Shown here piece by piece: positions 43,838 to 48,791 of a stretch of 64,000 nt of DNA; within the stretch, counting starts at the first letter, position 1, and every line of letters starts with the position of its first letter. The DNA lies in the NCBI RefSeq assembly GCF_018332695.1, contig NZ_BOQN01000071.1, positions 1 to 64,000 of the forward strand, in the 5' to 3' direction. The position numbers and the translations under genes are program-made. A model generated the notes under the pieces. It searched no databases and had not been told where the DNA came from. It was given only the letters and a program-made list of their open reading frames with translations. Origin of the DNA: Paractinoplanes toevensis. Its GTDB lineage: Bacteria > Actinomycetota > Actinomycetes > Mycobacteriales > Micromonosporaceae.

Positions 43838-44081
43838 CCGCACCCCTCGACTCGATTAACCGTGGACTATTTGTAACACCGGAGAAACTTGTGGTCCGCA
43901 TCACCACTCAGGCAAGTTAGTTGTTTACTTGCCCGCTTGGCCATCATGAGTTCGCGGTACATTGCCCCCTCTGGGGTATAAATCCGGCAAATCATCTGAC
44001 CGTTTGTTCCAGAAGCGTGACCGGTTCCTGCCCGAGGTGTGCAACCCGGGCTTTCCTCAAGTGCCACAGGTCCCGGCCGAC

Positions 44082-46358
44082 ATGGGATGCGTGCTAGCAA
44101 CTCAGCAACTGACGGAGTTCCTCTCCGTCGTCGCCGAACGGCCCGACAGCCCGGCCGTGCAGCATGCTGCCGTGGGCTGCGCCGCTCGGGCCCTCCACGC
44201 CGACGTGGCCGTCCTGCTGATCGACGAGGGCGTGGCCGCCACCGTCGGGGTGAACGCCGACGACGTACCCGTCTATGCGCTCGGGGAGGTCGCCGCCGGG
44301 CACCGCAACAGCCTCGACCTGGCCGGCCGCCGCTACGCGGTGACGTTCGCCCTGCTCGACGGCGGGGTCAACGGCGTACTCGTGCTGGGTCGGCCGGACG
44401 ACCGGGCGTTCACCGTCGACGAGGTCTGCCTGCTACGCAACATGGCCCGGGTCTTTCAGCTGAGCCTCAGCTCGGTGCAGATGTTCGCGAACGAACGCCG
44501 CTACACCGAGGAGAACGACCGCCTGCTCGACTCGCTCCAGCAGCGGCAGCGCCTTTTCGAGAAGCTCACCGAGGTGCAGCGGGCCATCGCCCGCCGGTCC
44601 CCGCTCGACAAGATCCTGGCAACCGTCACCAGTTCGGCCCGCGAGCTGCTCAACGTCGAGATGGCCAGTCTCAACCTGGTCGACCGGGACGACCCCACGA
44701 CCGGCAGCATGGCCGCCGCGTCCGGCGTACCGGAAGAGGTCGTGGCGCAGGTCGACCGCATGCCGCTCGCCGCCGGGGGTGTCTCCGGCCTCGCCATCCT
44801 GGGCGACGAACTGGTCATGGTCGAGGACTACCAGGCCTCCCCGATCGCCATGCCGACCATGATGAAAGCGCGGCTGCGCTCGGTGATGGCCACCCCCGTG
44901 CACGAGAACGGGCACGCCGTCGGCAGCCTCACCGTCGGCATGTACAGCGAAGCCCGCGAGTGGGACAAGCCGGCCCAGGAGATGCTGCGGGCGTTCGCCG
45001 AGCACATCAGCCTGGCCATCACCGACGCGCGCACCCTGGAAGCGATGAACCAGGCCTTCCTGGACTCGCTGACCGGGCTGCCCAGCCGCTCGCTCTTCCA
45101 GACCCGGATGGAGGAGACCCTGGCCGCCGACCACGGCGGCCTCGCCGTGCTCTTCATCGACCTCGACCGCTTCAAGATGGTCAACGACTCGCTCGGCCAC
45201 GCCGCCGGCGACCAGCTGCTGGCCGGGGTCGCCGAGCGCATCCTGGTCTGCCTGCGCGACGACGACATCGCGGCCCGCCTCGGCGGCGACGAGTTCGCCG
45301 TCCTGCTGCCCGGCCTCGGCTCACCCGCGGAGGCGGTGCCGATCGCGAACCGCGTGCTGGAACAGCTGCGGGCACCCTTCGAACTCAACGGCGCCGAGGC
45401 GTACGTGACCGCCAGCATCGGCATCGCGTACTGCCCGGCCGGCTCGCCCGAGCCGCCGAGCGCGCAGGACCTGATGGTCGACGCCGACCTCGCCATGTAC
45501 CAGGCGAAGAAGCACGGCAAGGACAAATTCGAGATGTTCGAGCCGGGCATGCGGGTCGCCTTCCAGGCCACCATCGACATGGAGAGCGACCTGCGCCGCG
45601 CGGTCGTCCGGCACGAGTTCGAACTGCGCTACCAGCCCATCGTCCGGCTCAACTCCGGCGAGATCACCGGCGTCGAGGCGCTGATCCGCTGGATGCACCC
45701 CGAGCGCGGCGTCGTCCCGCCGGTCGAGTTCATCCCGCTCGCCGAGGAGACCGGCCTGATCGTGCCGATCGGCGAATGGGTGCTGCGCGAGGCGACCCAG
45801 CAGGTGGCCGCCTGGAACACCCGCCGCTCCGGGCGCCCGCTGACGGTCAGCGTGAACATCTCCGCCGTCCAGCTGGAACACAGCGTGCTGCCCGAGATCG
45901 TGCAGTCGGCGCTGGACGCGTCCGGCTTGCGTGCCGACCGGCTGACCCTCGAACTCACCGAGAGCCTGCTCGTCGACCACCGCCCGGAGACCCTGCAACG
46001 CCTTCATGACATCAAAGCCTTGGGCGTACGCCTGGCCATCGACGATTTCGGTACGGGTTACTCGTCGCTCGCCTACCTGCGCCAGTTCCCGGTCGACATC
46101 ATCAAGATCGACAAGTCCTTCGTGGACGACGTCGTCGACGAGCCGACCGCGGCCGCCCTGACCCACGGCATCATCCAGCTGGGCCGGGCCCTCTCCCTGT
46201 CGACGATCGCCGAGGGCATCGAACACGCCGGCCAACTGACCTCGCTGGCCGGCGGCAACTGCGAACTGGGCCAGGGCTACTACTTCGCCGAGCCGCTGAC
46301 CCGCTCCGACTTCGACGACCTGCTGTTCCCGATCGACGTGCCCGGCGAGTGCGATTGA
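44082..46358 (+). CDS. GAF-GGDEF-EAL protein (c-di-GMP turnover)
   Basis: Cytoplasmic signalling protein of 758 residues. The N-terminal 135 residues are GAF-like, then a short coiled-coil, then a full GAF domain (about 155-315, with AAGGVSGLAILGDELVMVEDY and GHAVGSLTVGM). GGDEF follows at about 325-485 with an intact GGDEF at 402-406, and EAL at about 500-750 with EAL at 532-534, NISAVQ, ELTESLL, DDFGTGYSSL, KIDKSFV and AEGIE. Both active sites look complete. ATG 44082 and GTG 44091 are both plausible starts. The upstream 240 bp contain the AT-rich promoter region shared with the divergent DeoR gene. Confidence 0.9.
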   Translation: MGCVLATQQLTEFLSVVAERPDSPAVQHAAVGCAARALHADVAVLLIDEGVAATVGVNADDVPVYALGEVAAGHRNSLDLAGRRYAVTFALLDGGVNGVLVLGRPDDRAFTVDEVCLLRNMARVFQLSLSSVQMFANERRYTEENDRLLDSLQQRQRLFEKLTEVQRAIARRSPLDKILATVTSSARELLNVEMASLNLVDRDDPTTGSMAAASGVPEEVVAQVDRMPLAAGGVSGLAILGDELVMVEDYQASPIAMPTMMKARLRSVMATPVHENGHAVGSLTVGMYSEAREWDKPAQEMLRAFAEHISLAITDARTLEAMNQAFLDSLTGLPSRSLFQTRMEETLAADHGGLAVLFIDLDRFKMVNDSLGHAAGDQLLAGVAERILVCLRDDDIAARLGGDEFAVLLPGLGSPAEAVPIANRVLEQLRAPFELNGAEAYVTASIGIAYCPAGSPEPPSAQDLMVDADLAMYQAKKHGKDKFEMFEPGMRVAFQATIDMESDLRRAVVRHEFELRYQPIVRLNSGEITGVEALIRWMHPERGVVPPVEFIPLAEETGLIVPIGEWVLREATQQVAAWNTRRSGRPLTVSVNISAVQLEHSVLPEIVQSALDASGLRADRLTLELTESLLVDHRPETLQRLHDIKALGVRLAIDDFGTGYSSLAYLRQFPVDIIKIDKSFVDDVVDEPTAAALTHGIIQLGRALSLSTIAEGIEHAGQLTSLAGGNCELGQGYYFAEPLTRSDFDDLLFPIDVPGECD

Positions 46359-46383: not shown

Positions 46384-46767
46384 ATGCTCGAGTCCATCTA
46401 CCGCGAGTACCTCGCCGCGCTCAACGAACGACGCCTGGACGACCTGAATCGCTTCGTGCACGACGAGCTGACCTACAACGGCGAGCCGATGACCCGCGGG
46501 CAGTACCGAGACCTGATCGCCGCCGACATCGAGGCGGTCCCCGACCTGTTCTACGACGCCCGCATCATCGTCACCGACGACACCCGGGTGGCCTGCCGCC
46601 TGCTCTTCAGCTGCACGCCGCAGCGGGACTTCCTCGGCTTCACCCCGGACGGCCGCCGCCTGACCTTCGCCGAACACGTCTTCTACGACTTCCGCGACGG
46701 CCGGATAGCCGCCGTGTCCTCCCTGATCGACCGCCACGCCATCCAGACCCAGCTGAACTCGCCCTGA
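46384..46767 (+). CDS. SnoaL-like ester cyclase-fold protein
   Basis: A 127-residue protein of the SnoaL/NTF2-like alpha+beta cone fold (SnoaL-like ester cyclase group): MLESIYREYLAALNERRLDDLNRFVHDELTYNGEPMTRG at the start and LTFAEHVFYDFRDGRIAAVSSLIDR at the end. In polyketide pathways such proteins close rings, but stand-alone members have many roles. There is no polyketide cluster nearby. ATG 46384 lies 25 bp after the GAF-GGDEF-EAL stop and could be co-transcribed. It converges on the caspase-like gene, whose stop is 2 bp away. Confidence 0.82.
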   Translation: MLESIYREYLAALNERRLDDLNRFVHDELTYNGEPMTRGQYRDLIAADIEAVPDLFYDARIIVTDDTRVACRLLFSCTPQRDFLGFTPDGRRLTFAEHVFYDFRDGRIAAVSSLIDRHAIQTQLNSP

Positions 46768-46769
46768 GG

Positions 46770-48791
46770 TCACGCACTCCGGCGCAGAGCCGGCCGGATC
46801 GAGGTAGGCCGGGTCTCGTCGTCGCCGCGGACCCGGGCCGCGATCTCCTTGCGGACCTCGGCGGCCAGCGGCCGGAGCTCCGGTGCGCCGCGCTCGCCGG
46901 TGATGTAGCCCTGCACGTGCCGGATGCCGCTGCGATAGATCTGCCGGAGGGTGACCAGGGACTCCTCGTCCACTCCCTCGACGACCACCGCGCGGGGAGC
47001 GTCCATCGTCTGGCGAGCCACCGCCACGACCAGTTCGAGCTCCCGCGTCGCCAGCTCATGCTGCAGGATCGCGCGGTCGACCTTGATGTGGGTCAGCCGC
47101 AGGTCGACCATCCGGGCCAGCGAGGCGTGCCCGACCCCGAAGTCGTCGAGCGAGAACGCGACCCCGACGTCCTGGGCGATCGCCGCCAGCCGCTTGTTGA
47201 AGTAGTCGTGCGGAGCCTCGCCCCACTGCTCGCCGGCCCACGGCTCGATCGCGTCCTGCTCGGAGATCTCCAGCGTGACGGCGCCCGCGTCCAACTCCAG
47301 CTCGGAGATCAACTGGCGAAGTGTGTCGACGTAGGAGTCGTCGAGCAGCGAGCGCACCGACACGTTCACCGAGACCGGCTTCGGCTCGTCCGCGCTCCAC
47401 GGGCTGTCGGCATGGGCCAGCTTGTACGCCGTCAGCGCCCGGCCCAGGATCGACCGGTCCCGCTCGACCACGAAGTGATCGCCCCAGGTGTGCGCGAGCT
47501 GCAGCATCGCGACCGGCGCGCGCTGGTCGTCCAGGGAACGACGGGCCAGGGCCTCGTAGCTGTACACCCCCACCTGGGTCCACGCCTCGCCGATCGTGAC
47601 CACCGGCTGGAACACGATGCGGAACGACTCGAGCACCTCGCGGTAGAGGTCCAGGGCCCGCTCGAACATCTCGTCCGGGAGCCGTCCGAATACCGAACGC
47701 AGGGCGCTGAGGAAGTGGAGCTCCGACTCCTGCGGCGAATCGGCGGTGTTGGTGTGCCAGATGGTCTCCAGCACCTTGGCGCCGGTCTGGCCGAGCTCGA
47801 CCAGCCACTCCGGCGGATCGACCACGGCCAGCAGGCGGGCCGTGCTCGACGCCGGTCCGAGCGGGGCGCACCACAGCCGGCGCGGCCCCTCGCTCGCGGT
47901 GTGCCCGAATCCCCGGGGCCAGGCGGCCTGCAGCAGATGGCGTACGGCGTCGAGGTCGAACCCGTCGGTGGCGTCGACCGCGACGTATCCGTCCTCGCCG
48001 CTGCCGAGATAGGCCACCGCACCGGCCCCGAGTGCCGACCGCACCCGCTCGACGTGGCCGACCATCGGCCCGTTGCGCGCCAGCCGCCGGATCAGCCGGG
48101 TCAGTTGGGGTGCGTGCCGGTCGAGCGGGTTGCCCAGCGGAACGATCGACACCTGGTCCGCGCCCGCGTGCCGCGGGTCGAGACCGCTCAGCGTCTCGAC
48201 GGACGCGCCGTCGCGCAACGCCTCGAGGACGTGGTGGGTGAAGACCCCGTGCTGAAGCGTCGCATCCTCGCGAGCATCCGCGTCGGGCGCGCAGGCGACC
48301 AGAACGCCGTGCCGCGGGTCGTCGCGGCCACCGGCGTTGACCAGGTCGGTGCCCTGGAACGTGGCGGAATCGTCGGCCCGGCAGCAGTCCAGGATCGCCA
48401 CGGCCGTCCCGCGGAAGTGCGGCAGGACGTCCCGGTTCAGGAAGGTCATGCGCAAGCCCGCGTCCGGTCGCTCCGGCAGCGCCGACTCATCGAGGTCCGG
48501 CGTCACCAGATAGAACTCCGTGCCGCGACTCCAGGACGGCTCGACCACCTGGCCGGCGTAATAGACCAGGAGGACATCGGACTCGTCGGACTCGAGCGCG
48601 ATGCGGCGAAGGGTCCGCTTGATCTCGGCGGCCCGCACCCGCGATCCGGCGAACAACGTTATTTCGTACGCATCGCCCAGAACATCGTGAACCGCGACAG
48701 CATCTCGCTCGGCGTAGCGAAGGGGTGACATTGAGCTTCGAACGCCGACCCCATTGACTCCAATGATCACTGCGAGGCGTCGATGTGCCAC
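46770..48791 (-). CDS. Caspase-like (C14) / GAF-like / EAL fusion protein
   Basis: A 673-residue fusion. Residues 1-205 form a caspase-fold domain like the bacterial caspases of conflict systems: RRLAVIIGVNGV, the basic-site strand DVLLVYYAGQ (72-81), and AILDCCRAD with Cys137/138. The catalytic His of the usual YYAGHG is Gln81 here, so peptidase activity is doubtful. Residues about 245-370 look GAF-like. Residues about 385-650 are an EAL domain with Glu413, Asn476, Glu508, Asp549/550, Lys570, Glu605 and Gln627, the full set needed for c-di-GMP hydrolysis. GTG 48791 is the start. It stands alone, next to another c-di-GMP gene. I do not know a described system with this order. Confidence 0.82.
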   Translation of the reverse strand: MAHRRLAVIIGVNGVGVRSSMSPLRYAERDAVAVHDVLGDAYEITLFAGSRVRAAEIKRTLRRIALESDESDVLLVYYAGQVVEPSWSRGTEFYLVTPDLDESALPERPDAGLRMTFLNRDVLPHFRGTAVAILDCCRADDSATFQGTDLVNAGGRDDPRHGVLVACAPDADAREDATLQHGVFTHHVLEALRDGASVETLSGLDPRHAGADQVSIVPLGNPLDRHAPQLTRLIRRLARNGPMVGHVERVRSALGAGAVAYLGSGEDGYVAVDATDGFDLDAVRHLLQAAWPRGFGHTASEGPRRLWCAPLGPASSTARLLAVVDPPEWLVELGQTGAKVLETIWHTNTADSPQESELHFLSALRSVFGRLPDEMFERALDLYREVLESFRIVFQPVVTIGEAWTQVGVYSYEALARRSLDDQRAPVAMLQLAHTWGDHFVVERDRSILGRALTAYKLAHADSPWSADEPKPVSVNVSVRSLLDDSYVDTLRQLISELELDAGAVTLEISEQDAIEPWAGEQWGEAPHDYFNKRLAAIAQDVGVAFSLDDFGVGHASLARMVDLRLTHIKVDRAILQHELATRELELVVAVARQTMDAPRAVVVEGVDEESLVTLRQIYRSGIRHVQGYITGERGAPELRPLAAEVRKEIAARVRGDDETRPTSIRPALRRSA

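Follow-up and report, generated by a model that had tools for sequence, protein, structure and literature searches.

The caspase-based conflict systems of actinobacteria in which EACC1 is the constant partner consist of two genes, EACC1 first and then a caspase, whose C-terminal domain is drawn from up to 50 kinds (Kaur et al. 2020, PMC7159879). The main text of that paper nowhere contains the word EAL, and in the accessible part of PMC8195603, which mentions EACC1, the letters EAL were found only within an author's name. Among sensor-EAL phosphodiesterases, DosP, RocR and PdeA share the EAL fold and catalytic residues of the family described here, whereas its N-terminal module is a caspase. 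CalpL, a type III CRISPR protease of the Lon type with a SAVED domain (PMC11417357), can be compared solely in the way it works, as a protease joined to a domain that handles a cyclic nucleotide: protease type and messenger differ, being a caspase and, as predicted, c-di-GMP in the present family. In streptomycetes, c-di-GMP governs morphological differentiation (PMC7026642).

The window, a stretch of 64,000 nucleotides from Paractinoplanes toevensis, encodes a protein in which a caspase domain, a GAF-like middle region and an EAL domain follow one another (Table 1). The family to which it belongs is like the EACC1-caspase systems in having an N-terminal caspase nearest the EACC1-associated type, a variable C-terminal module and a home in the actinobacteria, and apparently also in the small adjoining partner, with a hydrophobic central segment, that most intact relatives possess. 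It is unlike them in that the C-terminal module is GAF-like plus EAL, in that the partner gene (F1) is remotely similar and lies 3' of the caspase gene, whereas EACC1 is described as upstream, and in that both the partner and the caspase His are missing from the window copy. An earlier note on this DNA knew of no described system with such an architecture. That holds for the fusion itself, which is as unusual as had been claimed: in the literature on caspases with EAL domains and c-di-GMP, and on EACC1, as far as its text was accessible, no caspase-EAL fusion was found. For the arrangement as a whole it needs a reservation, since EACC1-caspase systems with variable C-termini were described in 2020 (PMC7159879) and most intact relatives have an EACC1-like partner. 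The finding connects c-di-GMP with conflict systems of multicellular actinobacteria that are built on caspases. Because intact relatives mostly have the small partner gene and broken ones are without it, a signalling switch under caspase control is suggested, now decayed in the window copy.

Domain architecture of the window protein

Table 1. Features of the caspase-EAL locus, with positions in the window
Feature	Position	Strand	Details
Caspase / GAF-like / EAL gene	46770..48791	-	673 aa, GTG start
Caspase (C14) domain, aa 1-198, catalytic His gone	48198..48791	-	Pfam E 2e-13; MALT1 fold match, Z 17.7, 183 residues
Gln81 codon at the caspase His position	48549..48551	-	Alignment
Cys137 codon, kept Cys at the presumed catalytic position, motif LDCCRAD	48381..48383	-	Alignment
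Middle region, aa 222-350	47742..48128	-	GAF-like secondary structure, weak profile support
EAL domain, aa 385-640, expected catalytic residues present	46872..47639	-	Pfam, alignment, structure match
Conserved stretch, aa 512-531, ExxE motif to DDFG	47199..47258	-	Alignment
SnoaL-like gene, convergent; slot holds the EACC1-like gene in most intact relatives	46384..46767	+	

The start codons of homologues align with the GTG start of the gene. Pfam Peptidase_C14 (aa 4-197) and Pfam EAL (aa 388-631, E = 1e-23) match the protein above their curated cut-offs, and because both do so and the architecture recurs in relatives, chance similarity is ruled out as the source of the two matches. The order caspase-middle-EAL, which the earlier note had read from the letters, is that of a conserved family. 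The whole-protein AlphaFold model (built from 35 sequences) has a pLDDT of 82.7 and a pTM of 0.67. Since the 50 best Foldseek matches and the 50 best VIA matches listed for it were all EAL proteins, aa 1-350 were modelled separately (pLDDT 80.3, pTM 0.61).

The separate model matches the MALT1 paracaspase (rmsd 3.0, other values in Table 1) and metacaspases as well, and the 50 best Foldseek matches listed comprise 49 caspase-type proteins and one sensor histidine kinase. These matches to paracaspases and metacaspases rule out the reading that the N-terminal region is not a caspase; the fold assigned to residues 1-205 in the earlier note is correct, but the domain extends only to about aa 198. 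Of 35 family members, 19 match Pfam C14 at E <= 1 and all match Pfam EAL. The NCBIfam family "caspase, EACC1-associated type" matches 33 of the 35 (best 1.6e-28), which is the number that have a caspase domain; the window copy scores 57.9 bits against this model (caspase_w_EACC1), below the cut-off of 140.

The replacement of the caspase His by Gln81 is confirmed by the alignment. The Cys pair is retained as was claimed, but its numbering is Cys136/Cys137 and not 137/138; the second, Cys137, is taken to be at the catalytic position from its motif. This motif is LDCCRAD in the window copy and mostly LDCCxAG in intact relatives. Among 38 aligned copies, 20 have an intact His/Cys pair, 16 have a broken one and two (L076 and L080) are without the domain; of the 36 rows with a caspase, 25 have His at position 81. 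Both residues have been lost from nine of the broken copies, Cys from five and His from two (the window copy and that of P. tereljensis). In an 11-member clade of Actinoplanes and Paractinoplanes, Cys has been lost from all 11 and His from nine. The lesion differs even between adjoining lineages, P. durhamensis having His and Ser where the window copy has Gln and Cys.

The middle region is better called GAF-like than GAF, and even that is weakly supported. The predicted order of helices and strands, compared by eye in the whole-protein and aa 1-350 models, agrees with the earlier description of a GAF-like middle, but no GAF family appears among the Pfam matches of the 35 members. Comparison with a GAF profile built from 25 such domains encoded in the window genome gave a probability of 4.2%, low in absolute terms, though higher than that of any of 37 control families (best 1.1%) or 40 column-shuffled GAF alignments (best 0.6%). 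The 50 VIA matches listed for the aa 1-350 model span aa 1-220 only, and so barely probe the fold of the middle region.

The EAL domain of the window copy is apparently intact and is predicted to degrade c-di-GMP. All the residues named in the earlier note (E413, N476, E508, D549, D550, K570, E605 and Q627) are indeed present, as is E511, and positions 413, 415, 476, 508, 511, 549, 550, 570, 605 and 627 do not vary in any of the 38 copies. The best structural match of the EAL part of the whole-protein model is PdeA (Z 23.3, 247 residues, rmsd 3.1). Close to the expected active site, aa 512-531 read EP..GE.W..P..YF..RL in most members, and the stretch between ExxE and DDFG seems long for an EAL protein.

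Distribution and phylogeny of the family

A first search covered 100 genomes, of which 60 counted as the same genus (the window's own included), and the family was found in 18 of these 60; in the 40 genomes of the same order the best E was 6e-17, and among the matches listed, all lay in the EAL part. A pattern scan with one genome per species yielded 35 loci in Actinoplanes/Paractinoplanes, Mangrovihabitans, Micromonospora, Verrucosispora, Dactylosporangium, Asanoa, Frankia and two MAGs (one of Acidimicrobiales). A profile of the caspase plus the middle region gave 14 matches at E < 1e-80 in 200 genomes of the window's taxonomic family, with one further genome, G546, matching in the middle part only, and at E 1e-25 an N-terminal profile matched only the window's own genome among 396 genomes from across the phylum. 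The caspase-EAL family thus looks rare beyond its taxonomic family, yet not confined there, since Frankia and the two MAGs carry copies. The closest relative is that of Paractinoplanes tereljensis (96% identity).

The alignment of 38 distinct copies comprises the window copy, 34 of the 35 loci from the pattern scan and three further copies; a locus with a broken reading frame (L082), duplicate genomes and G546, from which the caspase part is absent, were left out before counting. Three intact copies read later (G636, G587 and G575) were counted apart and stand outside the tree and the selection tests. On a maximum-likelihood tree of the middle and EAL columns, the distribution of intact and other copies needs four changes.

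A small partner gene downstream of most intact copies

Gene calls on the flanks, followed by clustering and a six-frame profile scan, identified F1, a gene of about 107 codons on the same strand and immediately 3' of the caspase-EAL gene; at 11 of the 16 loci with a measured gap, the two genes share 4 bases. F1 adjoins 17 of the 20 intact copies, in all 17 on the 3' side, and none of the 18 others. With the three copies read later the count is 18 of 23, G636 having an intact pair and F1, and G587 and G575 having intact motifs (LDCCRAG, AGH) and F1 nowhere in the genome. The five intact copies without adjacent F1 are those of M. lutea, Actinoplanes KI2, G587, G575 and A. subtropicus, so F1 is not strictly needed for an intact pair; from the whole genomes of M. 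lutea and Actinoplanes KI2 it is absent. Whole-genome searches, in which the positive controls were detected (three in one run, one in the other), found F1 nowhere in the 18 genomes of non-intact copies (13 broken, two caspase-less, the window's own, G048 and G034), and thus neither adjoining the window gene nor elsewhere in the window genome. An F1 profile likewise had no match in the 396 phylum-wide genomes, in a run without a positive control in which 12 candidates were scored in the genomes listed.

On the tree of 38 copies, the joint loss of F1 and of an intact caspase reduces to four independent pairs, of which 3.4 agree on average and none opposes (sign-test median p = 0.25); because kinship leaves only these four, the co-loss falls short of significance. 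The data would fit an order in which F1 was lost first and the caspase later, since G587 and G575 are intact without F1 and two genomes of the same genus, G541 and G595, have lost the Cys and also have no F1. Two exceptional loci were seen besides: a second caspase-EAL copy of A. subtropicus (L082:6001-7450) has a broken frame and an intact adjoining F1, and G546 (L155:4249-8500) keeps F1 and the EAL part without the caspase part, with transposase- or recombinase-like ORFs upstream, as judged by eye.

Relationship of F1 to EACC1

The profile of F1 gave seven matches in the 200 genomes of the window's taxonomic family, six of them adjoining the caspase-EAL family and the seventh a true EACC1 gene (86.5 bits) with a caspase gene behind it that has the motifs GHG and LDCC. 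Profile-profile comparison of F1 with EACC1 gave 40% (45% in another run); the best of 36 other families reached 3.7%, the best of 60 column-shuffled EACC1 alignments 5.8% and the reversed control 0.3%. Searches of single sequences gave less: Pfam EACC1 matched one of ten F1 proteins (12.6 bits, under the cut-off of 23.6), NCBIfam gave an EACC1 match in none of eight, the F1 profile scored at most 9.0 bits on 25 other EACC1 sequences and did not separate them from shuffles (8.2), and the EACC1 profile scored at most 13.3 bits on F1 proteins, with shuffles up to 11.6 and 10.5 in two runs. The hydrophobic central segment is alike in hydropathy in the two groups, the top 19-residue value being at least 1.6 in 15 of 19 F1 and 20 of 25 EACC1 proteins, although hydropathy alone is no proof of a membrane helix. 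F1 is best described as EACC1-like and appears to be remotely related to EACC1.

The window genome contains three canonical EACC1 genes, none of them beside the caspase-EAL gene, and each is followed, on its own strand and within a single frame, by the motifs GHG and LDCC. Because these loci keep their motifs, the broken pair is specific to the caspase-EAL protein and does not extend to the EACC1 caspases of the organism.

Unequal constraint on the caspase and EAL domains

In the 11 broken copies of Actinoplanes/Paractinoplanes, residue change amounts to 0.276 per caspase column and 0.078 per EAL column, a ratio of 3.5 (95% interval 2.6-5.0); in 11 intact copies of Micromonospora/Verrucosispora the values are 0.258 and 0.232, a ratio of 1.1 (0.9-1.4). 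Median dN/dS for the caspase and the EAL domain, respectively, is 0.30 and 0.14 in the broken clade, 0.23 and 0.08 in Asanoa (Cys lost), 0.18 and 0.18 in the intact Micromonospora group, 0.13 and 0.09 for A. subtropicus and KI2, and 0.15 and 0.09 in Frankia, and between the window copy and that of P. tereljensis dN/dS is 0.22 and 0.03. Constraint on a broken caspase is lowered, but the domain does not change freely. In the EAL domain dN/dS is not raised beside a broken caspase (0.14 and 0.03, versus 0.09-0.18 in intact groups), and together with the ratios above this indicates that the EAL domain is kept by selection whether or not the caspase works. Because the EAL domain is not relaxed when the caspase breaks, it can be argued to be the output and the caspase the input. 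The proposal in the earlier note that a caspase fold might be controlled in a different way is thus a poor fit to the window copy, in which the His has been lost, the caspase is changing fast and the EAL domain is kept.

Possible functions of the fusion

An explanation with about an even chance of being correct is that the family is an offshoot of the EACC1-caspase systems with a c-di-GMP phosphodiesterase as its output, and that the window copy has decayed to a GAF-EAL phosphodiesterase. In the ancestral intact form, which might have had a role in defence, the EACC1-like protein from the next gene would sense a trigger and then switch the caspase domain on; through self-cleavage or a conformational change, this domain would in turn release or activate the GAF-like-EAL part, the putative phosphodiesterase. 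In the window organism, where the EACC1-like gene is gone and the caspase His is lost, the protein would most likely still be a GAF-EAL phosphodiesterase on a caspase-shaped N-terminal scaffold. Control may instead run in the opposite direction, the intact members being c-di-GMP-gated caspases in which the EAL domain is the sensor, hydrolysis of the ligand a built-in timer and the caspase the output. In CalpL, the domain coupled to the protease both binds the cyclic messenger and breaks it down (PMC11417357), and the EAL domain has the residues of an active enzyme, but such gating is unlikely, as a sensor deprived of its output should decay and the EAL domain stays constrained next to a broken, fast-changing caspase. 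A more elaborate version, a two-gene switch in which the caspase and the c-di-GMP enzyme joined in one intact protein control each other, with binding and breakdown of c-di-GMP as gate and timer and the EACC1-like protein as trigger, is likewise improbable; if true, such a mutual-control switch would link caspase conflict systems to c-di-GMP signalling, a link not found in the literature searched, as far as its text was accessible.

It is also doubtful that the caspase fold of the window copy is a pseudoenzyme with its own job, for example in regulating the EAL domain by acting as a decoy or a platform for binding. A broken caspase domain is still carried by 16 copies, with dN/dS of about 0.2-0.3 in the groups measured, and about 70% of effector-position caspase domains in vWA systems are inactive (PMC7159879); yet in the 11-member broken lineage the caspase changes 3.5 times as fast as the EAL domain, and L076 is without it, both of which count against such a job. 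That the protein is an ordinary EAL phosphodiesterase with an acquired caspase domain of no lasting function is very improbable: the caspase-less members L076 and L080 would suit it, but the pair is intact in 20 of the 36 caspase-bearing copies, in several genera, and the caspase changes no faster than the EAL domain in the Micromonospora-Verrucosispora group. Closely related copies that are intact, half-broken or caspase-less, some with the partner and some not, make the family a natural experiment in which tests can tell the domain that serves as switch from the one that serves as output.

Other features of the locus and its relatives

The gene of a GAF-GGDEF-EAL protein (43962-46358) is convergent to the caspase-EAL gene, with the SnoaL-like gene between them, and in P. 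tereljensis a gene of this neighbour's cluster also adjoins the caspase-EAL copy. The neighbour was considered as a partner and set aside, the cluster being a loose one in three loci. The C-terminus has the form R/K-G/S-A (as in LRRSA and LQRGA; 46773-46790 in the window) in all 21 copies of the Actinoplanes-Mangrovihabitans-Asanoa clade, whether or not F1 is present, and in none of the 17 others; it may mark the protein for degradation or act as a docking tail. On the upstream flank of nine to ten loci (L053-L061 and others), often directly adjoining, there is a shared block of three gene clusters (F4, F2 and F3), whose products, guessed from the letters, would be a YihY-like membrane protein, a phosphatase-like protein and an endonuclease/exonuclease-like protein.
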